Positions 18,934 through 28,586 of a stretch of 64,000 bases of DNA are shown piece by piece. How positions within the stretch are numbered: the stretch's first letter is position 1; every line of letters starts with the position of its first letter. The notes under the pieces were generated by a model, which worked only from the letters and a program-made list of their open reading frames with translations, had not been told where the DNA came from and ran no database searches. The translations under genes and the position numbers were made by a program. This DNA comes from Acidimicrobiaceae bacterium (lineage in GTDB: Bacteria > Actinomycetota > Acidimicrobiia > Acidimicrobiales > RAAP-2). The stretch is from assembly GCA_003138815.1 (NCBI GenBank), contig PLHD01000010.1, forward strand, positions 62,308 to 126,307, read 5' to 3'.

Positions 18934-20298
18934 GTGGCCGACTATCTACCCCACACCAGCGATGAGGTCGACGAGATGCTCTCGTTCCTCGGCATGGACT
19001 CGCTCGACCAGCTCTTCGCGCACATTCCCGCCGCGGTGCGACTCTCCCAGGGCCTGGACCTGCCCGACGGCATGAGCGAGCCCGACGTCGCCGAGGTGTT
19101 CGCACGCTTCAGCGCGGCCAACCAGGCCAAGTCCCCCGAGATGCTCTGCTTCGCCGGCGCGGGCGCCTACGACCACGAGGTGCCCGCCGTCGTGAAGGCG
19201 CTCGCGGGACGTTCGGAGTTCGTGACGGCCTACACGCCCTACCAGCCCGAGGTGGCCCAGGGGGTGCTCCAGGCCATCTTCGAGTACCAGACGATGGTCT
19301 CGCGGCTCAGCGGCCTGCCGATCGCCAACGCCTCGCTCTACGACGGCTCGGCGGCGCTGGTCGAGGCGCTCAACATGGCTTCGGGCGCGACCGGTCGCCA
19401 GCGGATGCTGGTCTCGGCCGGAGTGCACCCGCACTGGCGCGCCGTGGCGCGCACCTTCGCCGTGGGCACGGGACACGAGATCGTCGAGGTCCCGCTGAAG
19501 GACGGCGTCACCGACTGGGGGAGCGTGGTCGCCGCCGGTGCCGCCGCCGTAGTCGGCGCCTACCCGAACTACCTGGGCGTGATGGAGGACATGGGTGGCG
19601 CCAAGAGGCTGGCCGTCGCCAACGAGGCGCTCTTCGTGCTGGCGTGCGACCCCGTGGCCGCGGGGGTGCTGAAGACGGCGGGCCAGTGGGGCGCCGACGT
19701 CTTCGTGGGCGAGGGACAGGCCTTCGGCACGTCCGTGTCGTTCGGGGGTCCGTACCTGGGACTCTTCGCCTGCAGCCTCGAACTGATCCGCCGCCTGCCC
19801 GGACGGATCGTCGGCGAGACGGTCGACTCGAACGACCGCCGGGCCTTCGTGACGACGCTGCGCGCGCGCGAACAGGACATCCGCCGAGAGAAGGCGACGT
19901 CGAACGTCTGCACGAACCAGACGCTGATGGCGGTCACCGCCGCGATACAGCTCGGCTGGCTCGGTACGTACGGCCTGCGCGAGGTCGCCACGCGCTGCGC
20001 GCAGGGCGCGCACTTCCTGTTCGACGAGGTCACCAAGATCAAGGGCGTCGAGCCGGTCTCGTCTCAGCCCTTCTTCCGCGAGTTCGCGATCCGCGTGCCC
20101 AAGAAGGCGTCGAAGGTCCTGTCGCGCATGGCCGACCGGGGCATCCTCGGTGGCCTCTCGGACGCGGCGCTCAACGCCGGCGGCGCCATGGACGCGGTCG
20201 CCAACAGCGAGCGCGTCATACTCGTCAGCGCCACCGAGCGTCGAACGAGGTCCGATATCGAGCAGTACGTCAAGGCGCTTCGAAAGGCGGTCGACTGA
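18934..20298 (+). CDS. gcvPA: Glycine dehydrogenase (decarboxylating) subunit 1
   Basis: 454 residues. YLPHTSDEVDEML at the start, TAYTPYQPEVAQG near residue 95 and the EYQTM/LSGLPIANASLYDG segment near 115-130 are typical of the alpha subunit of the two-subunit P protein. It pairs with GcvPB to decarboxylate glycine. GTG 18934 lies one base after the gcvT stop, and its own stop overlaps the gcvPB ATG (TGATG), so gcvT-PA-PB is one translationally linked unit. Confidence 0.93.
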   Translation: MADYLPHTSDEVDEMLSFLGMDSLDQLFAHIPAAVRLSQGLDLPDGMSEPDVAEVFARFSAANQAKSPEMLCFAGAGAYDHEVPAVVKALAGRSEFVTAYTPYQPEVAQGVLQAIFEYQTMVSRLSGLPIANASLYDGSAALVEALNMASGATGRQRMLVSAGVHPHWRAVARTFAVGTGHEIVEVPLKDGVTDWGSVVAAGAAAVVGAYPNYLGVMEDMGGAKRLAVANEALFVLACDPVAAGVLKTAGQWGADVFVGEGQAFGTSVSFGGPYLGLFACSLELIRRLPGRIVGETVDSNDRRAFVTTLRAREQDIRREKATSNVCTNQTLMAVTAAIQLGWLGTYGLREVATRCAQGAHFLFDEVTKIKGVEPVSSQPFFREFAIRVPKKASKVLSRMADRGILGGLSDAALNAGGAMDAVANSERVILVSATERRTRSDIEQYVKALRKAVD

Positions 20299-21812
20299 TG
20301 TCTAGCAATGCTCTGCCCGGCGGACGCGCCGCGTCGGCTCCGATCCTCGGCCACGAGATCGAGCCGACGGTGTTCGAGATGTCCGTGGCCGGACGCTCGG
20401 CCTACCAGCTGCGAACGACCGGCGTCCCGGCGACGCCGCTCGACGAGCTCGTCCCCGCGGCCCATCTCAACCCCGAGGTCGTCGCGCTCGCCGAGGTCTC
20501 CGAGCGCGACCTGGTCGCGCACTACACGCGCCTGACTCACCGCCAGTTCTCGGTAGACCTCGGCGCCTACCCGCTGGGTTCGTGCACCATGAAGTACAAC
20601 CCGAAGTTCTGTGATGCGGTCGCCGCCGACCCCGGGCTCAACTCGGTGCACCCCGGCGCTCCCGCCGAGCTGACCCAGGGCTGGCTCGAGCTGCTCGTGA
20701 CCCTCGAGGAGAAGCTCTGCGCCGTCACCGGAATGGCGGCCGCGACGCTGCAGCCCTCGGCCGGGGCGGCCGGCGAGCTCACGGGACTGCTGCTCATGCG
20801 CGCGTTCCACAACGCCAACGGCGACCCGCGCTCGCGCGTCCTGATCCCCGACTCGGCCCACGGCACGAACCCGGCGTCGGTGACGCTGGGCGGCTACGAG
20901 GTGACGACCATCCCCTCCAACGACCGCGGCCTGGTCGACCTCGCGGCCCTGAAGGCGGCGCTTGGACCCGACGTGGCGGGCATCATGCTCACCAACCCCA
21001 ACACCGTGGGCCTCTTCGAAGAGGAGATCACCGAGATCGCCGCGGCGGTGCACGACGCCGGCGGCTTGCTGTACTACGACGGCGCGAACCTGAACGCCAT
21101 CCTCGGCGTCGTTCGCCCCGGCGACATGGGCTTCGACATCGTGCACATGAACCTCCACAAGACCTTCGCCACGCCCCACGGCGGGGGAGGACCGGGCGCC
21201 GGACCGGTGGCGGTCTCGGCGCGTCTCGCCCAGTTCCTGCCTGGGCCCAAGGCCACGCGCGTCGAGAAGGACTGGTACGACTGGGTCAAGCCCGCCAAGT
21301 CGATCGGACGCGTGCACGCCTGGCACGGCAACGCCATGGTGCTCGCCAGGGCGCTCGCGTACATCGAGGTGCACGGCGGCGACGGGCTGACCCGGGTGGC
21401 CCAGCGCGCGGTGCTCAACGCGAACTGGCTCCGCAGCCGCCTGAGCGCAACCTTGCCCGCCGCCTACGACCGTGTCTGCATGCACGAGTGCGTGCTGACC
21501 GCGGCGCCGCTGAAGGCCAAGTACGGCGTACGCGGACTGGACGTCGCCAAGGGCCTGCTCGAAGAGGGCTTCCATTCGCCGACCGTCTACTTCCCGTTGA
21601 TCGTCGACGAGGCGCTGATGTTCGAGCCGACCGAGACCGAGAGCCTCCAAACCCTCGAAGCGCTCGCCGAGGCGATCGAGCGAATCGAGAAGAGGGCCAG
21701 CAACGATCCCGAGTCGCTGCATCGTGCGCCCCAGACCACGCCCGTCTCAAGGGTCGACGAAGCGCGCGCGGCGCGCCACTTGATTCCTACGGAGGACGCG
21801 GCTTCTCGGTAG
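20298..21812 (+). CDS. gcvPB: Glycine dehydrogenase (decarboxylating) subunit 2
   Basis: 504 residues. YPLGSCTMKYNPK near residue 95, PDSAHGTNPASV near 195 and the PLP-lysine segment NLHKTFATPHGGGGPG (K288) are diagnostic of the P-protein beta subunit. It binds pyridoxal phosphate and decarboxylates glycine onto H-protein lipoamide. The ATG overlaps the gcvPA stop by one base. The last 40 residues or so are hydrophilic and less conserved. It marks the end of the ordinary chromosome before the low-GC accessory region. Confidence 0.94.
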   Translation: MSSNALPGGRAASAPILGHEIEPTVFEMSVAGRSAYQLRTTGVPATPLDELVPAAHLNPEVVALAEVSERDLVAHYTRLTHRQFSVDLGAYPLGSCTMKYNPKFCDAVAADPGLNSVHPGAPAELTQGWLELLVTLEEKLCAVTGMAAATLQPSAGAAGELTGLLLMRAFHNANGDPRSRVLIPDSAHGTNPASVTLGGYEVTTIPSNDRGLVDLAALKAALGPDVAGIMLTNPNTVGLFEEEITEIAAAVHDAGGLLYYDGANLNAILGVVRPGDMGFDIVHMNLHKTFATPHGGGGPGAGPVAVSARLAQFLPGPKATRVEKDWYDWVKPAKSIGRVHAWHGNAMVLARALAYIEVHGGDGLTRVAQRAVLNANWLRSRLSATLPAAYDRVCMHECVLTAAPLKAKYGVRGLDVAKGLLEEGFHSPTVYFPLIVDEALMFEPTETESLQTLEALAEAIERIEKRASNDPESLHRAPQTTPVSRVDEARAARHLIPTEDAASR

Positions 21813-21876
21813 AGCTTGGCCCACTCTCGGCAGGCTCCAGACACGATCGACTGTCGTGTTGGTTGCGGGTTCACAT

Positions 21877-21919
21877 GAGGGGCCCGACGCAACATCGCTG
21901 CCACCTTCCCCTGGCGACG
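21877..21919 (+). repeat. Dispersed accessory-region repeat, copy A
   Basis: GGGGCCCGACGCAAC is followed after five bases by TGCCACCTTCCCCTGGCG. Both halves match copy D (24239-24280). GTTGCG (21862-21867) and CGCAAC (21888-21893) form an inverted repeat around the left half. It sits between gcvPB and the first orphan gene of the island. Confidence 0.6.
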
Positions 21920-22038
21920 TGACGGCGTGCGCGACTGGGGGACATCCTGCGTCGGAATGACTCCGCGCGACCAAGCGCAAGGTTCACAGCTCGCCCTTGT
22001 AGGAAGAAGGCCCTTGGCGTGGAGCCGAGTTGGAAGAC

Positions 22039-22641
22039 CTATTTCATTCGCTCGCGACCTGGCAATCGAGGAGGACCTTGAAGCCGACCCAGCACAGCAC
22101 CATTCTCGTCGCTTGCCTCGATTGCGTACGGCGCCCATTCATCAAGGCAAACGATCCATGCACCATAATGACCGGTGGCCGGAGCAGTGAGCTTGAATCC
22201 CCGTTGAATGACTGAAATATCCTTCACATCCGGCGAGTGGCGCCCCGAGATGACGATTGCCGGTGCGTCACTCTTCGGCTGATCCGTGAATTGGCCACCA
22301 CCCGCCCCAATTGCTTGAGCGTCGAGATCCGCGAGCGAATCCGGGTTTGTGATCGGATCATGGGACCATCCCGATCCGGACCAGTGGTGCAGAGGCTTCC
22401 AATTCTGTCGCTCACGACGGAAGGCTCCTCGAATCACCACGGGCGTCAAGGTTCCGTCGTCGTTCGTCGAATAACGAAGGAAGAGAACCGCTCCGCAGTG
22501 CGAATCCTTCCAGTAAGCGAGGGGGGTAACGGAACTTGAGTCGAGCGGCATCGGCATTTCCGCAAGACCTTCGGCCAACACCTTGAGCCCGTTCACGGCC
22601 ATGTTGGAAAAATCGAAGATCGACTCGTCCGCAATGTTCAT
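22039..22641 (-). CDS. Hypothetical protein of the low-GC region
   Basis: 200 residues, no family recognised. It is acidic, with Trp-rich segments (NWKPLHHWSGSGWSHDP near residue 85) and an Ile/Val-rich C-terminal half containing VDISVIQRGF-like and WAPYAIEASDENG segments. No signal peptide or membrane helix is seen. Support for expression: minus-strand TAGCGT (22653-22648) lies exactly six bases before ATG, the same leaderless geometry as neighbouring housekeeping genes. Codon use is less GC-biased than in the flanking chromosome, suggesting acquisition. Confidence 0.6.
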   Translation of the reverse strand: MNIADESIFDFSNMAVNGLKVLAEGLAEMPMPLDSSSVTPLAYWKDSHCGAVLFLRYSTNDDGTLTPVVIRGAFRRERQNWKPLHHWSGSGWSHDPITNPDSLADLDAQAIGAGGGQFTDQPKSDAPAIVISGRHSPDVKDISVIQRGFKLTAPATGHYGAWIVCLDEWAPYAIEASDENGAVLGRLQGPPRLPGRERMK

Positions 22642-22692
22642 CTCTTCACGCTAACGCCAGTTCCTGCGATTCGCAGGTTGAACCTCGCTGAT

Positions 22693-22727
22693 GTCGGAGG
22701 CTCGACTTGAAAGAAATGCCACCTTGG
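22693..22727 (+). repeat. Dispersed repeat, copy B1
   Basis: GTCGGAGGCTCGAC followed by TTGAAAGAAATGCCACCTTG; the ATGCCACC half is shared with copies A and D. It lies directly upstream of copy B2. Confidence 0.5.
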
Positions 22728-22757
22728 ATTGACTGTGCCACTGAAGGCCTGACCAGA

Positions 22758-22796
22758 GGCGGAGGCCCGACGTAACAGACATCACCATGCATCGGC
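22758..22796 (+). repeat. Dispersed repeat, copy B2
   Basis: GCGGAGGCCCGACGTAAC, then CACCATGCATCGGCG, matching copy D with a two-base deletion. An ATG inside it (22787) opens a frame into the following phosphotransferase gene, but a downstream GTG is a better start. Confidence 0.6.
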
Positions 22797-22882
22797 GATT
22801 GCCCTCGTCTGTGGTCGAGTTAGCGGCAGTACGTCTGACTCAGCTCGTGGAGGGAATCGACCATGGAGGTAGGGTTTGTGGG

Positions 22883-23419
22883 GTGCATACAGACGTGGTT
22901 GTCCTCAACGGCGGGTCGAGCGCGGGCAAGTCGATGATCGCCAGCTCCCTGCAAGCCCTTCTGGCCAAGCCGTGGTTGACGCTTGGAGTTGACAACCTCA
23001 TAGATGCTTTGGGGCCCGCTGCGACGGGATCGGGTTCGGTGATCACCTTTAGCCCTGACGGTGGGGTCGACGCCGGCGAGCTATTCCGTCAAGCCGAGGA
23101 CGCTTGGTATCAAGGCCTGGCAGCGATTGCTCGATCGGGCACCGGAGTCATCATCGACGAAGCGTTCCTGGGCGGCGGAGCATCCCAGTTTCGGTTGAGT
23201 TCGGCGCTTGGCGATCTAAAGGTGCTCTGGGTAGGTGTTCATTGCGACCCGGAGATCGCATCATCGCGAGAGCTGTCTCGCCCGAATCGCGTAAGGGGGA
23301 TGGCGAGGACCCAGTCGAGCCTCGTACACGAAGGAGTGAACTACGACGTCGAAGTTGACACTTCTGACACGTCTGCGATTGAGTGCGCCCACTTGATCCT
23401 GGCTCGGATGAACCTCTGA
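22883..23419 (+). CDS. Chloramphenicol-phosphotransferase-like P-loop kinase
   Basis: 178 residues from GTG 22883. The N-terminus VVVLNGGSSAGKS is a P-loop, and the later IIDEAFLGGG and LWVGVHCDPEIASSRE segments follow the chloramphenicol 3-O-phosphotransferase family. Family members phosphorylate small hydroxylated compounds; the substrate here is unknown, and antibiotic resistance cannot be assumed. GTG 22883 is chosen over ATG 22787: TAGGGT 22870-22875 ends seven bases before it, the protein then begins right at the P-loop strand, and the length equals that of the Streptomyces venezuelae enzyme. It stands alone between copies B2 and C of the repeat. Confidence 0.75.
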   Translation: MHTDVVVLNGGSSAGKSMIASSLQALLAKPWLTLGVDNLIDALGPAATGSGSVITFSPDGGVDAGELFRQAEDAWYQGLAAIARSGTGVIIDEAFLGGGASQFRLSSALGDLKVLWVGVHCDPEIASSRELSRPNRVRGMARTQSSLVHEGVNYDVEVDTSDTSAIECAHLILARMNL

Positions 23420-23589
23420 CTGCTCTTGCCGGCGACTCCTGAAGTCGATGTTCGACATCTTGGTGAACGTTCCAGCGAACTCAGTTTCGCCGGCGGTCTC
23501 CAGGTCATTTCGACTGACAAATTGATCCAAAGGTCGCACGTCTCGGTTGTCGATGATGCCCGACTCATTGGGCCGTCCTGTGTTCGGGT

Positions 23590-23608
23590 GTCGGAGGCCC
23601 GACGCAGC
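23590..23608 (+). repeat. Dispersed repeat, copy C
   Basis: GTCGGAGGCCCGACGCAGC, the fullest version of the left half, with a five-base stem GTCGG/CCGAC around AGGC. The right half is not clearly conserved. The 170 bases between the phosphotransferase stop and this copy hold only an unconvincing frame beginning at 23426. Confidence 0.6.
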
Positions 23609-23643
23609 AAGTCTTGTGCTCGACACCGGCGCATGGTCAATCG

Positions 23644-23919
23644 CTATTTCTCGTGACCCACGTGCCACTTGGCGCACGTGCCGCATCGATAGACACTCAT
23701 TGGCGCACCGTCTCGCTTCATCAATAGCCGAGCACGCCCCTCAGCCTCGTCGCGATTCGCGTAGCCCATCTTGGACTGACCACTCATCGTTGTGTGCGCA
23801 CGCGGACCGCGGCGAAGTGAGGTTCCGGCCCCTCTTCCTCGACCTCCGTAACGGCTTGACCAAGAGAAGACGAGAACTAGCAACGCTAGGGCGGCAATCA
23901 GCACGCCGACGGTGCTCAT
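23644..23919 (-). CDS. Small membrane-anchored protein with C-terminal zinc-finger-like motif
   Basis: 91 residues. One N-terminal membrane helix (VGVLIAALALLVLVFSW, residues 4-20), a basic linker, then a conserved-looking C-terminal module beginning MGYANRDEAEGRARLLMKRDG and ending YRCGTCAKWHVGH, a Cys-x2-Cys-x3-His-x2-His arrangement. Similar small modules with YRCxxCxxWHxxx occur widely in phage and bacterial proteins of unknown function. No clear ribosome site or -10 hexamer was identified at the ATG. Confidence 0.55.
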   Translation of the reverse strand: MSTVGVLIAALALLVLVFSWSSRYGGRGRGAGTSLRRGPRAHTTMSGQSKMGYANRDEAEGRARLLMKRDGAPMSVYRCGTCAKWHVGHEK

Positions 23920-24268
23920 GACTGCTCAGCCCACAAGTGACATCGCGCGCACGAGACGGTTGCGCGATTATCGGCTTCCGAACGAAAAAGTTGCATACCG
24001 CTCTCCCTTCGCTCTCACCACACCACCGGCTCGTGCTTCTGCAGGTGAGTTCATCATCCTGGGCTCTCTGAAAAATCTAGCTTCGGAATGAACGCCTTCA
24101 AACTTGGAGCCGGGGCTCAATGGATGGGAACGTAAAGCGAAAGCCCCTCCAGTAGGAAAGCTTCGGAGACCGAATTGGCGCTGGACACTGCCAACCAGTT
24201 GTTTGACGGTGACGGCTGCCTGACTTCGGAGGCTCGTATCGGAGGCCCGACGCAGCCAGAATGCCACC
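23920..24268. other. Gap between orphan genes holding repeat copies D1 and D2
   Basis: No convincing gene is seen. A minus-strand frame covers 23968-24270, but its first residues are simply the translated repeat. GGCTGC (24214-24219) and GCAGCC (24252-24257) form an inverted repeat enclosing both repeat copies. Confidence 0.4.
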
Positions 24269-24280
24269 ATGCACTGGCGG
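24225..24280 (+). repeat. Dispersed repeat, copies D1 and D2
   Basis: D1 is TTCGGAGGCTCG (24225-24236). D2 is TCGGAGGCCCGACGCAGC (24239-24256), followed after five bases by TGCCACCATGCACTGGCGG. This is the most complete copy and the reference for the right half. The ATG at 24269 inside it starts a 26-residue frame. Confidence 0.65.
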
Positions 24281-24349
24281 ATCGGAAAAGGTCAATATCC
24301 CGAACGAGGTGTGCGGTTGGCGTCGGAGAGTTCTGGTCTACTGAACTGA
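24269..24349 (+). CDS. Possible 26-residue leader peptide upstream of an orphan gene
   Basis: The frame starts at the ATG inside repeat copy D2 (MHWRIGKGQYP...) and ends with TGA at 24347-24349, whose last base is the A of the next gene's ATG (TGATG). Such one-base overlap is typical of translational coupling. CAGAAT, close to a -10 hexamer, lies six bases before the ATG. Too short to judge coding potential; it may be coincidental. Confidence 0.3.
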   Translation: MHWRIGKGQYPERGVRLASESSGLLN

Positions 24350-24717
24350 TGCGAACGCAACCAGGACTCCCTAAGGGCTGGTCGTTCCCGATCGAGTCGT
24401 CAGACGTTGAGGAGTATTTTCCGGGAGTCGGCTACACCAACTGGGTCCCCAGCACAGCAGGACTCAAGGATTGGGTCCCTCGTCACCCACCATGTCTTAG
24501 CGTTGCACGGGAACCCCGTACTGCTGTGCCTCGGTACGTCCTGACCGTCCGGGCCGGGCCGTCCGAGCATCGAGCCGGCATTCGAAAGTGGATAGACGAA
24601 GAGGTCGGTCTGGAAGCGCGCGCGTGGATGCAATCGCTGGAGTCTCAAAGCCCTACCTGGCTTAACCATGGGCACGGTATGCATTGGTTTTGGCATCCAG
24701 AATCCGATTCAGACTGA
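24349..24717 (+). CDS. Hypothetical protein of the low-GC region
   Basis: 122 residues, no family recognised. Tryptophan- and proline-rich (GWSFPIESSDVEEYF near the start, YTNWVP, LKDWVPRHPP) with a C-terminal NHGHGMHWFWHP. No signal peptide or membrane helix. The start overlaps the stop of a possible 26-residue leader frame; no SD is clear. It sits between repeat copies D and E. Confidence 0.5.
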   Translation: MRTQPGLPKGWSFPIESSDVEEYFPGVGYTNWVPSTAGLKDWVPRHPPCLSVAREPRTAVPRYVLTVRAGPSEHRAGIRKWIDEEVGLEARAWMQSLESQSPTWLNHGHGMHWFWHPESDSD

Positions 24718-24863
24718 CGCGCTGACGCGACACCTGCCGCTGAGCCAGTGGCAATGAATGCGGATTGGCTGCCATCCCTTTTTCACAGCAGACGCAAGCC
24801 GCATCGAAGGACACCGGGCGCCTCAATTGCCGTTGTATCGCCGCAGTTACGGAGCAGGAGATT

Positions 24864-25190
24864 GTGGCTGCAGAGACCTATTGGATCTGCAACTTTGCAT
24901 TGGCACCTAATTGGGTGAAGAACCCTTACGGACCTTTCCAATTTCGTGTAACAATTCGATGCGTGAACTTCTCCGCAGAGTGGCAGCCCGCAGTCAAGGT
25001 TTTGGGGACAGATACCGAAGCACGCGAAAGCGGGCGAAATACGTTTGCAAAGTGGTTGCGTGATCGAGAAATTGACTTCAACGAGCTCAAAGTTGCTGAT
25101 TTCAGAATTGATTCCGCAAGGACACCGGACGGTCCTGGACTTATGTTTAGCGTCAAGAAGACTCTGCTGGATAAGGCAGGGCCAGTTTGA
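24864..25190 (+). CDS. Hypothetical protein of the low-GC region
   Basis: 108 residues. It begins VAAETYWICNFALAPNW and has mixed alpha/beta character, with KWLRDREIDFNELKVADFRID in the middle and VKKTLLDK at the C-terminus. No family recognised. GTG 24864 is chosen because GCAGGAGATT places an AGGAG just before it; the frame remains open upstream to 24765, but those codons look non-coding. It lies between repeat copies D and E with no partner gene. Confidence 0.5.
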   Translation: MAAETYWICNFALAPNWVKNPYGPFQFRVTIRCVNFSAEWQPAVKVLGTDTEARESGRNTFAKWLRDREIDFNELKVADFRIDSARTPDGPGLMFSVKKTLLDKAGPV

Positions 25191-25241
25191 TTTGAATCGA
25201 TGCCGCGCGCTCGGCGAAGTTGAAGATGTGTCGGCTTCCTA

Positions 25242-25260
25242 GCGTCGGAGGGCCGACGTC
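25242..25260 (+). repeat. Dispersed repeat, copy E
   Basis: GCGTCGGAGGGCCGACGTC: only the palindromic left half is kept (six-base stem CGTCGG/CCGACG around AGGG). It marks the end of the run of orphan genes; the following 200 bases before the GGDEF-EAL gene hold nothing recognised. Confidence 0.5.
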
Positions 25261-25458
25261 CACAATCTAATGGTGACTTGCAGCGTGGCACGTGCACGGT
25301 GGACCAGACTAATCAGGTGGAGAAGATTCCGGCCGTCGGCCAAGAGGTTCTTGACGTTCGTTCAGCCTTCGGAGTCCGGAATCAGTCCCGGAACGAGAAG
25401 GGGGTCGAGTGCCCTGCCTGGAGTGTGTCGATGGCCGGCAGTACCACCGTCGAACCCA

Positions 25459-27834
25459 TCACACGGCCGCGATGCCGGGGTCGCGTTCAACCGCCGATCG
25501 TAGTGGGTCCGCAATCGTCACTGTGTCCCGAGCCACCTCGTTGAGAAGGAAGACGTCGAGTTCAGCGCTGGTGAGCGGATAAGCGACGAAGTTTCCTTGG
25601 ATGACGTCTGCGCCGACACTGCTCAGCGAATCGAAGGATCGCGAAGACTCGATGCCCTCGGCGACTACGGTAAGGCCAAGGGCGCGTGCCATCTCGATCA
25701 TGGAACGAATGAGAGAGATCGCTCGGCTGTCAGTGTCGAGGGCCAAGACGAACGACTTGTCAATCTTAAGTTCGTCCACTGACAGTTCCAGAAGCTGTGA
25801 CATCGACGAATATCCGACCCCGAAGTCATCAATGGAGATCTTGATCCCTAAGGATCTGAGCCTCTCGAGACTCCTCTTCGCCAGAGCTGGGTCTTGGGTC
25901 AGGCTTGACTCGGTGACCTCTAGGACTAATCGGTCCGCGGGGAGGCGGAACCACTCGAGCATGCGAGAGATCGAGTCGGGCAACTGCGGATCGATCAGGT
26001 CCCAGCGCGAGATGTTCACGCTCATCTGAAGCGCATGTCCGTTTCGATGAAGGCGGGCTAGTTCGTGGATTGCCAGGTCGAGCACCGCCCGGGTCAGCGG
26101 CGAGATGAGACCAGCTCTCTCGGCGAGCGGTATGAAGTCGTCCGGTTGGAGAAGACCTAGTGTCGGATGCTGCCATCTCACGAGCGCCTCCACCCCGTGC
26201 ACTGACCCGGTCAGCACGTGGCGAGTCGGTTGGAACTGCAAAATCAGACTGCGACGGTCGATCGCGGTTCGCAGATCGTTGATCACTGTCAGGCGTTCCC
26301 TGGTGTTGTCGTCTATGCCATCGCTGTAGACGCGCACAGCGTCTCGGCTGCGCTTCGCCTCGTACATTGCGACATCGGCACTGCGAAGAAGATCAACGTG
26401 CGTCGTGCCGTGCTGGGGCCAGACGGCGACCCCGATGCTCGCGCTCACGCGCACCTTGGTTCCGTCGACCGCCACCGGGTCGGCCAGTGCTTTCGCCAGT
26501 TCAGTGGCGATCGCGATCGGGTCCGACTCGGCCTCGATCATCAGAGTGCAGGCGAATTCGTCGCCCCCTATGCGAGCCATCGGTCCTCGGTTACCGATCT
26601 TCTTGGCGAAGCGGCGGCCGATGATCTTTAAGAGCTCGTCGCCTTTCGCGTGACCCAACGAGTCGTTCACCTCCTTGAATCCGTCGAGGTCGACCAATAC
26701 GATGGCGAGTTGTTCATCCGGCCGGAGTGAGGCGAGCTTCGACTCACCATCTTCCAGGAAGTCCCGACGATTGGACAGACCAGTGACGTGGTCGGTCCGC
26801 GCATCGACGAAGTGCGAACGTCCGAGCTGGCGCACCTCACTCTGAGTCATGACCATACGAAAAATCACCAAGACCAGTGACCCAAGCGCCATGAACGTCG
26901 TCGCCTTGGAGGTCGTTCGGTGGACGGCGTTGGCGAGTATGGCAATCGACAGGGCTCCGAAGATGACGGGAATAAGGTTCAAACCCCAAGGGGAAACAAG
27001 TCTCTCCCGTGACTCGCCTCGACGGTCGACCCTGGGCCACGCCGCCAACGCCAGGCAACACATCCCAATCGGGCGTGACGAGGTGACCAAAGAGTCCACG
27101 AAGTGGGACATCGTCGCAACCTGGTTGAGTTCCACGAAGTCACCGAGGCCGATCGAGATGAGTCCGATGATGAGCCAAACGGTGGGCCTGTTGGGGCGGA
27201 AGTGACTCGGCATGAGTCCAGCGAAGAGTAGGACCAGGAGGACGATCACCAGTATCGGATTGAAGATGTTCAGCTCGGAGACCAACGGCCGGCCACTGAC
27301 CTCGATGTACTGGCGGAACCAATACGTTGACGCCAAGGCGGCAAGTGCCAGGCCAGCGATGAGCCCGTCGAGACGGACGCTGATAGCTCGAGGGCCGAAG
27401 GACTGTTGCATGACGACGGCGACGGCGACGGCGACGGCGAAGTAGGACAGGACGAGAACGGCGTCACGAGTTGTAGAGGTCGAGAACGGGGTCACGCCCG
27501 CGAGGCTCAGTAGTCGGAGAACGTCGGCGAGGTCGAAGAGCAGGATGCCCAGACCCATCAGGAGCCAGGCACCACGTAGCGCAGAGTAGTTCTTCAGGCG
27601 AGTCAGAATCGGAACGACCGGCGCCATGAGGGCGAGGCACTCCAACCAGCTGTACAACGACACCGAGTCGATTGAGTAAGGGAGACGAACGGTGAGGAGC
27701 AGTGTCACGTACGTGACCACTACGAGGATCGCCGCCAATTCCGAAGTGAACTGGAATAGGTCGGACGACGCACGTCGAAGATAGCGATGTACCTTTGCCG
27801 GCGCAGTCACGTTGGGGGATCCCGCGATCGTCAT
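25459..27834 (-). CDS. Membrane GGDEF-EAL protein (diguanylate cyclase / c-di-GMP phosphodiesterase)
   Basis: 791 residues. Residues 30-320 form about nine or ten membrane helices of an uncharacterised sensor region. A GGDEF domain follows (about 345-505) with intact RIGGDEFA, then an EAL domain (about 520-765) with VEALVRW, NISRWDL, VTESSL, IDDFGVGYSS, DELKIDKSF and VVAEGIES. Both active sites look complete, so it may make or degrade cyclic di-GMP at the membrane; the dominant activity cannot be told. QGNFVAYPL replaces the commoner QGY(L/x) ending. ATG 27834 lacks a clear SD or -10. It is the only large gene in the low-GC region. Confidence 0.88.
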   Translation of the reverse strand: MTIAGSPNVTAPAKVHRYLRRASSDLFQFTSELAAILVVVTYVTLLLTVRLPYSIDSVSLYSWLECLALMAPVVPILTRLKNYSALRGAWLLMGLGILLFDLADVLRLLSLAGVTPFSTSTTRDAVLVLSYFAVAVAVAVVMQQSFGPRAISVRLDGLIAGLALAALASTYWFRQYIEVSGRPLVSELNIFNPILVIVLLVLLFAGLMPSHFRPNRPTVWLIIGLISIGLGDFVELNQVATMSHFVDSLVTSSRPIGMCCLALAAWPRVDRRGESRERLVSPWGLNLIPVIFGALSIAILANAVHRTTSKATTFMALGSLVLVIFRMVMTQSEVRQLGRSHFVDARTDHVTGLSNRRDFLEDGESKLASLRPDEQLAIVLVDLDGFKEVNDSLGHAKGDELLKIIGRRFAKKIGNRGPMARIGGDEFACTLMIEAESDPIAIATELAKALADPVAVDGTKVRVSASIGVAVWPQHGTTHVDLLRSADVAMYEAKRSRDAVRVYSDGIDDNTRERLTVINDLRTAIDRRSLILQFQPTRHVLTGSVHGVEALVRWQHPTLGLLQPDDFIPLAERAGLISPLTRAVLDLAIHELARLHRNGHALQMSVNISRWDLIDPQLPDSISRMLEWFRLPADRLVLEVTESSLTQDPALAKRSLERLRSLGIKISIDDFGVGYSSMSQLLELSVDELKIDKSFVLALDTDSRAISLIRSMIEMARALGLTVVAEGIESSRSFDSLSSVGADVIQGNFVAYPLTSAELDVFLLNEVARDTVTIADPLRSAVERDPGIAAV

Positions 27835-28586
27835 TACGGACTATCAGTGATAGTTAGGCGCGCGCCAAGATTCTGACGAGGAGGTGTGGACGTCACTAAA
27901 CCATCGACTCTATTCTTGACCACCCTATTTGTTGTAGATCTATCGACCATGATTCATACGCTTCTGCCCTTCGGAAAGCGATGTGCACGCGAAGACCTAT
28001 TCCGCACATGTCACTTGATGTTCGAAATCAACTGCTGACATCGTCGATCGAAGTCCCTAGAGACGTGAATCGATCTTCCATTGTCGCCTCATATGGCCGT
28101 CGAGTTGTCAACATCGTCACAATTACATGACATAATCCGCTCGGTCGCGTTGTATTCGTTCCAAAATAGAAGACCATTGCTTGGTTGCGACAGCGTTACA
28201 GGATGTGGTCTCGCCTCAGCCGATCGGCGTCACACGGATCTGTAAGCGCATTGGACGTGGCCATTCTTCTGTTGCGCGGCAGTTGCTGGTCTTCACAGTT
28301 GATCCCACGCAAGAAGAGCCAGCATCGAGCGACCCGGTGTCGGAGGCCATATGACGCCACTGTCAAGTCTCACCGCACGACACCTGCATCTGATCTCATC
28401 GCTTTCGCTAAGACGTTCGTCGCTCGCGTATCCTGATCGCTGTTGAGTTGATGAGATGAATTCTGGGGCGTGTGCGGAGTGGGCGGCGTGACGTGCCATA
28501 CCCTTTAGGAATGCGACCACGCACCGGCCATTGAACTAGACCGTGCGGGTTCTGCTCTGTGGCCCGACGTGAACCCGCACGCACCG
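27835..28586. other. AT-richer gap with two degenerate repeat copies
   Basis: About 750 bases with no recognisable gene; a plus-strand frame at 28185-28436 is Arg/Ser-rich and unconvincing. Degenerate copies of the dispersed repeat are GTGTCGGAGGCC (28337-28348) and GGCCCGACGTGAAC (28561-28574). The GC content is clearly below that of the rest of the window. Confidence 0.4.

Follow-up and report, generated by a model that had tools for sequence, protein, structure and literature searches.

Integrons are the textbook platform for capturing single genes, in which the tyrosine recombinase IntI acts on folded single-stranded sites (attI, attC), and serine integrases are known for the one-way insertion of large elements. 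Here we describe a region of the 2.53-Mb draft genome (75 contigs) of an Acidimicrobiaceae bacterium (GTDB lineage RAAP-2) in which copies of a short repeat separate single genes. The window, that is, the whole stretch of 64,000 nucleotides analysed (contig PLHD01000010.1, positions 62,308 to 126,307, assembly GCA_003138815.1), is likely to contain, between its positions 21861 and 28580, an array of mobile short cassettes, many of them single-gene, built by site-specific recombination with large serine recombinases (LSRs) that target tRNA-Leu, the cassettes being moved in trans. No description of an LSR-based short-cassette array was found among the titles and abstract openings covered by our literature search, a coverage that excluded most subscription papers and all preprints.

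The arrays described here are similar to integrons and to clusters of attC sites lacking integron integrases (CALIN) in that short cassettes adjoin at single sites, all sites have the same orientation, exchange occurs at exact site borders, an anchor stands at one end and arrays also occur with no integrase nearby. In contrast to integrons, the core is the 3' end of a tRNA-Leu gene, the arms match those of serine-recombinase attP sites, open reading frames (ORFs) read in both directions and the recombinase gene is itself one of the units carried. The integron integrase model TIGR02249 scored over its cut-off in none of 99 genomes of the genus, including the genome under study, while sub-threshold matches occurred in all 99, as they did in all 14 control genomes. 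The R'' and R' boxes of attC (RYYYAAC / GTTRRRY) were absent by eye, no attC model being applied. An integron or CALIN with degenerate attC sites was rejected as a classification, as no IntI scored over the cut-off, and is retained as an analogy.

Among the staphylococcal cassette chromosomes (SCC), tandem elements and recombinase-less pseudo-SCC elements exist. SCC/SCCmec and the Enterococcus cassette chromosome (ECC; 32 kb in one case) carry the large serine recombinases CcrAB, insert at the 3' end of rlmH and are flanked by att repeats (PMC6222049). Our arrays share with SCC an LSR, a conserved gene whose 3' end is the insertion target, and flanking att repeats, and we likewise found putative LSR att-site borders and tandem units that appear to lack a recombinase gene. 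The target is not the rlmH 3' end but that of tRNA-Leu(GAG) or a similar anchor, each unit has a single arm and most measure 0.2-1.6 kb, in contrast to the multi-kilobase islands of SCC, and up to 74 core matches occur per genome. Serine-integrase phages and integrative and conjugative elements of the phiC31, Bxb1 and TP901-1 type have palindromic attP and attB sites of about 40-50 bp and many genes travelling with the integrase, and their insertion uses up attB. These elements share the LSR domain order with the present system, whereas here an array is built and the anchor would be kept. The pdif/Xer modules of Acinetobacter plasmids are small gene modules between XerCD (tyrosine) sites; compared by description only, they share with our arrays small gene modules between short recombination sites, but the sites there lie in opposite orientation.

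One-way arrays within a single genus

A scan of the whole window for the repeat core yielded eight copies in a single orientation, which are the eight that an initial annotation of this DNA had listed as pointing one way. In addition, there was one weak same-strand match (20378-20395) within an ORF (19644-21812), with no arm, and one further weak match on the opposite strand (29247). The full consensus at up to three mismatches matched the window once versus zero expected (100 shuffles), and an 18-base version at up to two mismatches matched 25 places in the same genome (reversed control, 0). These places were mainly clustered, on contigs C8, C34, C46 (twice) and C67; some of the two-mismatch places (e.g. 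on C10, C18 and C64) are without the flanking pattern and may be chance. Below, L and G numbers label loci and genomes, G000 being the genome under study, and all data come from draft genomes.

The exact longer pattern was found in 55 DNA stretches of GTDB species genomes, labelled Acidimicrobiaceae (50), Acidimicrobiales (1), Actinomycetes (1) and other (3), and the viral contigs searched gave no match. Three site-bearing records (L109, L110 and L125) are labelled Acidobacteria, Saccharibacteria and Acidobacteriota, respectively, and at least the label of L125 looks wrong, as this record probably comes from a genome of the present genus (G036:C77). Genomes with palsa, bog or fen in their isolate names are among the carriers and belong to the Stordalen Mire permafrost series. 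At up to two mismatches the core was present in 75 of the 99 genus genomes, at a maximum of 74 places per genome (reversed control, 0-2 per strand). Across 298 genomes of the order, 22 had a match at up to one mismatch. Three of the nine genus members in this set were among them; the remaining 19 came from the 289 genomes outside the genus and had 1-2 isolated places each, with the reversed control matching in 10 genomes. Since hits outside the genus were isolated and near the control level, the arrays are confined to this genus within the order sampled.

Among the first 56 loci, 40 had at least two sites, and in 37 of these 40 all sites lay on one strand. This arrangement, together with the near-control, isolated hits outside the genus, is not the random scatter that the initial annotation had held up as the mark of a merely REP-like (repetitive extragenic palindromic) or terminator element; the repeat is real, clustered and directional, and is not a REP or terminator family. 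The 121 site-to-site intervals below 6 kb comprised 15 of 63-78 bp (empty units), 73 of 0.16-1.6 kb and 33 longer ones, some of which perhaps conceal degenerate sites. ORFs between sites, taken by a longest-ORF rule rather than with a gene finder, were mostly unrelated to one another and read in both directions, and a scan of six array loci with Rfam at gathering cut-offs returned tRNAs only.

A tRNA-Leu core with arms matching serine-recombinase sites

Read in reverse complement, the core (CGTCGGGCCTCCGACACCA) equals the 3' terminus of the gene for tRNA-Leu(GAG) (GCCTCCGACACC), a gene that ends AGTCCCGCCTCCGACACCA. This tRNA-Leu-derived core, the serine-recombinase arms and a split attB are parts of the mechanism that the initial annotation had not seen. 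ARAGORN called tRNA-Leu(GAG) in L067, L071, L078 and L086. In L071 an array unit stands immediately after this tRNA, and in L100/L197 one stands after a tRNA-like 3' end that ARAGORN did not call; the distance downstream from the tRNA to the first site is 0.6-1.1 kb in L196 and L200. A 28-base tRNA-end pattern at up to three mismatches was found in 81 of the 99 genomes, in a search that also matches other tRNAs and some sites. In G000, the core within the tRNA-Leu end (G000:C44:5513-5540) reads TTCGAC in place of TCCGAC, with no site detected behind that end; at least four site clusters or lone sites of this genome end at tRNA-like anchors.

The base adjacent to the crossover tracks the tRNA of the host: genomes with a C-type tRNA had 126 sites with C and 7 with T, versus 7 with C and 69 with T in T-type genomes (Fisher 1.5e-38, ignoring relatedness, with tRNA types taken from the 28-base search). 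The point of exchange is therefore placed just beyond this base. The tRNA-Leu end is a general insertion hotspot. For example, two copies of the tRNA-Leu 3' end enclose about 9-10 kb in L188:2075-11184 and L189:4506-14036 (flipped coordinates), and a Phage_integrase (PF00589) gene stands close to one border of each stretch. Tyrosine and serine elements thus use one common tRNA target.

LSR genes lie at the same tRNA in relatives, and their 3' ends run into the core (L086, L194, L202, L203, L251 and others). Four LSRs from relatives have Resolvase, Recombinase and zinc-ribbon domains (PF00239, PF07508 and PF13408), although the zinc ribbon of L238 is just below the cut-off. Their nearest NCBIfam models were CcrB (3.3e-36) and CcrA (6.1e-27), with XisF close behind, all far under cut-off; matches to CcrB, CcrA and CcrC reached 62-125 bits versus cut-offs of 700-900, which places these proteins outside the Ccr group. 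We distinguish two LSR types by labels of our own, type 1 (P0002) and type 3 (P0001), the nearest solved structure to P0001 being the TP901-1 integrase. In the phage collection, 463 records had an LSR match, all below 60% identity, as did at least 5000 plasmid records, again all below 60% among the matches listed.

The arm adjacent to the core at type 1 genes reads CAGGTTTGCAACC in five loci and CAGTTATGCCACC in three (two from one genome), while that at type 3 genes reads ACAATCTCCGACT in L239, with variants in seven other loci, and the conserved right half of the repeat is the LSR arm in mirror image. Among 202 array sites at 57 loci (sites at up to one mismatch), 107 matched the type 1 arm, 15 the type 3 arm, none both and 80 neither, where a match required at least 10 of 14 positions, a level that random positions reached at 0.14% (type 1) and 0.1% (type 3). 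Core position 8 follows the arm type: 104 of the 107 sites of type 1 have C there, and 12 of the 15 of type 3 have G. A reading of the right-half pattern classes V1-V4 as variants of a hairpin was given up, since V1 and V3 are similar to LSR arms and V2 to a tRNA-like arm. As most right halves stayed unclassified, we claim no conserved right arm. The fourth class, TGACTCTCATAATGGTGAT, stands beside the core at L082:15625 and L072:5395, and neither LSR arm matches it.

Across 93 loci, LSR genes or fragments that include the C-terminus numbered 32, and 24 of these terminate no more than 100 bp from a core, 13 at a site and 11 at a tRNA-type end; tblastn matches of P0002 from residue 470 on, which represent the antisense tRNA gene, had been removed before this count. 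Of the remaining eight, L244, L247, L250 and L257 are on contigs that end at the gene, and L063, L095, L245 and L246 have no core within 1.8 kb. The contigs of L244, L247 and L250 are 3129-3153 bp long and hold little beyond the LSR gene and companion ORFs (352-421 aa; in two, 127-150 aa), and are possibly small complete mobile elements. Two LSR companions, L239:3818-4948 (376 aa) and L244:93-476 (127 aa), have no Pfam family over cut-off and no NCBIfam match; a role as accessory or directionality factors is possible.

In many arrays one border is formed by tRNA-Leu or by a tRNA-like half-site, GTGCGGGTTCACGTCGG, and the same anchor half-site directly precedes the intact LSR gene of L239, with a similar arrangement in L253 and L256. 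A platform order is seen in L251, where tRNA-Leu is followed by an LSR gene and then by six sites at spacings of 69 bp to about 1.4 kb, two of them with four mismatches, whereas in L238 an intact LSR gene lies inside the array. A two-arm site stands beside the LSR gene in L238/L236, and most cassettes show one recognisable arm. The island in the window is bracketed by a single palindromic attB-like site split in two, the anchor half closing one end and its mirror half the other (Table 1); a B' half beyond the last P1 site marks the distal end in L076 and L097 as well.

Cassette exchange, mechanism and rival explanations

The initial annotation had suspected a mobile-cassette array, and turnover of cassettes at site borders was indeed found. 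Out of 492 cross-genome alignments (at least 200 bp), three had all four ends within 45 bp of sites, versus none in 200 circular shifts, and 136 further alignments had one end at a site in both genomes, versus a mean of 0.97 and a maximum of 4 in the shifts. The three cassettes were 91.5% identical over 1277 bp (L063/L073; 78% between the species beside the tRNA), 92.4% over 1243 bp (L066/L240; 65% between the chromosomes beside the tRNA) and 83% over 500 bp (L067/L071; 71% between the species over 342 bp). The L066 cassette stands beside the anchor in a C-type genome, yet has kept a T-type base on its arm side. In addition, L090 and L093 (G028:C57 and G008:C98) share 1640 and 1918 bp at 100% identity between two species, including a site with an LSR fragment, which reflects either a very recent transfer or a binning error.

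These arrangements can be joined into a mechanism. The natural attB of the LSRs would be the 3' end of tRNA-Leu(GAG), with tRNA-like palindromic attB copies elsewhere serving too. A typical cassette would have, on one side, a single attP half-site of the LSR that consists of arm and core and, as a putative circular form (P arm plus core), would recombine at the core with the anchor (B arm plus core), presumably under LSR catalysis and with the half-site sufficing. In the product, the B arm would stay on the anchor side and the P arm of the cassette would come to lie at the far side; with the B arm kept at the anchor and a P site beyond each new cassette, the anchor would be reusable, as in attI x attC recombination. 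The LSR gene itself would be carried as one unit, beside the tRNA or anchor or within the array, and cassettes without an LSR gene would be mobilised in trans. We tentatively call the fullest form of this proposal a 'serine integron', an active chromosomal capture platform in which an LSR inserts single-half-site cassettes at a regenerated anchor and the LSR gene is itself a cassette, and we regard it as possible, if somewhat short of probable. If it is true, evolution would have reached the integron solution twice, independently, the half-site arrays would show cassette capture to have arisen more than once, and the traffic of accessory genes in an uncultured soil genus where the integron integrase model exceeded its cut-off in 0 of 99 genomes would be accounted for. 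It also raises the question of whether an LSR can repeatedly recombine attB with a hybrid site.

The main rival is tandem accretion followed by decay, in which LSR elements stacked at tRNA-Leu or attB-like sites were reduced to single genes between leftover att sites, the arrays being scars, as in pseudo-SCC elements, instead of an active capture system. In its favour, C-terminal fragments of LSRs occur at many sites, an intact LSR is found in mid-array, 18 of the 23 site-rich genomes, G000 included, are without a long LSR match, and tyrosine-integrase elements insert at the same tRNA too. Decay explains the fragments but not the exact transfers of short units: LSR-free units of 0.5-1.3 kb are common to species with core-to-core borders and 83-92% identity, and empty units of 63-70 bp recur (14 of the 121 intervals), whereas decay alone would not yield repeated exact short units. 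On balance we consider this rival unlikely. Far less probable is an unusual integron or CALIN, with the sites being worked by a tyrosine recombinase, either an IntI-like enzyme or a tRNA integrase. The anatomy of the arrays is integron-like, Phage_integrase-family genes (host XerC/D included) occurred in 61 of 61 genus genomes scanned, and PF00589 elements sit at the same tRNA in seven loci examined (one just below the Pfam cut-off), L188 among them with array sites as well. Against this stand the absence of any integron integrase over cut-off noted above and the fact that tyrosine-integrase elements carry other sequence past the tRNA end, while the arms of the cassettes are matched to the two types of LSR. 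Compared by eye, the number of tyrosine recombinases in a genome shows no relation to its number of sites. The poorest candidate, which we find hardly credible, is a passive palindromic repeat at gene ends, REP-like, terminator-like or other, shuffled by homologous recombination. The core is palindromic and largely intergenic, as such a repeat would be, but the clustered one-strand arrays, the tRNA-derived core, the LSR-type arms, the LSR genes ending in sites and the isolated character of hits outside the genus do not fit it. REP elements and bacterial interspersed mosaic elements are palindromes scattered over the whole genome, often as opposed pairs; they and terminators were set aside on the one-strand arrays, tRNA core and LSR arms, with no search for a REP transposase and no terminator scan.

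Several points weigh against an array built by LSRs acting in trans. LSRs need full attP and attB sites, while most cassettes have one recognisable arm; 80 of the 202 sites match neither reference arm, these arms were chosen after the likeness had been noticed, and the right-half classes left most sites as 'other'. G000 has no PF07508 match and retains two LSR fragments only, one of them beside the second array of the same contig (C46:134477-134728). By hand count, a long LSR match (E<1e-50) was present in 5 of 23 genomes with at least ten sites versus 14 of 76 with fewer, so LSR counts do not track site counts, which argues against a simple rule of 'enzyme present, sites many'. Only three cassettes are exact at all four ends, one border site of L067/L071 is seen only at a relaxed level of four mismatches, and many of the 136 one-end alignments end at the tRNA itself. 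Binning errors in draft genomes can mimic transfer, the C/T test is weakened by its neglect of relatedness, and in L188 array sites lie beyond the second tRNA copy of a tyrosine-integrase element.

Layout of the array in the window

The G+C content is 57-61% across 22-29 kb of the window versus 58-73% (mostly 64-71%) elsewhere in it, bearing out the low-G+C island of the initial annotation. Other details of that annotation changed on closer comparison. Of two copies it had taken for left halves only, the one at 25242 has a P3-like arm, and the one at 23590 has none that can be classified. The supposed degraded copy at 28561 is really the anchor half of the attB-like palindrome, and the longer inverted repeat reported around the first copy is present but is accounted for by the other half of the palindrome plus the arm. 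Outward from the anchor, the order is the GGDEF-EAL gene, the two-ORF cassette, the 91-aa ORF, the phosphotransferase-like gene, the 65-bp empty unit and the 200-aa ORF.

Table 1 Sites, anchor halves and cassette genes of the array, in window coordinates
Position	Strand	Feature	Details
21861-21877	-	Distal half B' of attB-like palindrome, GTGAACCCGCAACC (minus strand); far border of array	P1 arm and core half, then GTGAACCCGCA
21872-21914 (core 21872-21889)	-	Site A, distal: P1 arm GGTGGCAGCGATGTTG and left core half	Right half diverged; 7/18 mismatches in total
22039-22641	-	Cassette ORF, 200 aa	No family match
22690-22726 (core 22690-22707)	-	Site: P1 arm and core	3 mismatches
22755-22795 (core 22755-22772)	-	Site: P1-like arm and core	3 mismatches; 65 bp from preceding site, empty unit between
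22787-23419	+	Cassette gene, 210 aa, chloramphenicol phosphotransferase-like	PF07931 CPT E=4.4e-52; NF033114 220 bits, under cut-off 250
23587-23604	-	Site: 18-base core, no mismatches	Arm not recognisable as P1 or P3
23644-23919	-	Cassette ORF, 91 aa	No family match
24235-24275 (core 24235-24252)	-	Site: P1 arm GGTGGCATTCTGGCTG and core	2 mismatches; partial extra core half adjoining at 24226-24235
24349-24717	+	Cassette ORF, 122 aa	No family match
24765-25190	+	Cassette ORF, 141 aa	No family match; shares one cassette with ORF 24349-24717
25241-25275 (core 25241-25258)	-	Site: P3-like arm AGATTGTGGA and core with type-3-typical variant CGTCGGCCC	3 mismatches
25459-27834	-	Anchor-proximal cassette gene, 791 aa, GGDEF-EAL protein	PF00563 E=4.7e-70; PF00990 E=3.1e-35
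28336-28353	-	Degenerate site, no arm	3 mismatches, all in left half
28552-28569	-	Core of anchor copy
28552-28580	-	Anchor: B half of attB-like palindrome GTGCGGGTTCA and core half CGTCGGGCC; tRNA-Leu T-arm mimic	Minus strand reads GTGCGGGTTCACGTCGGGCC

Elsewhere in the same genome, three Phage_integrase genes stand in a row (L025, G000:C24:14603-16946; frames of 332, 369 and 417 aa), a trio that we take to resemble a recombinase-in-trio element. Within the window array, a partial core, TCGGAGGCTCG, stands directly beside the full core at 24239 (24226-24252), as if a half-site had been duplicated.

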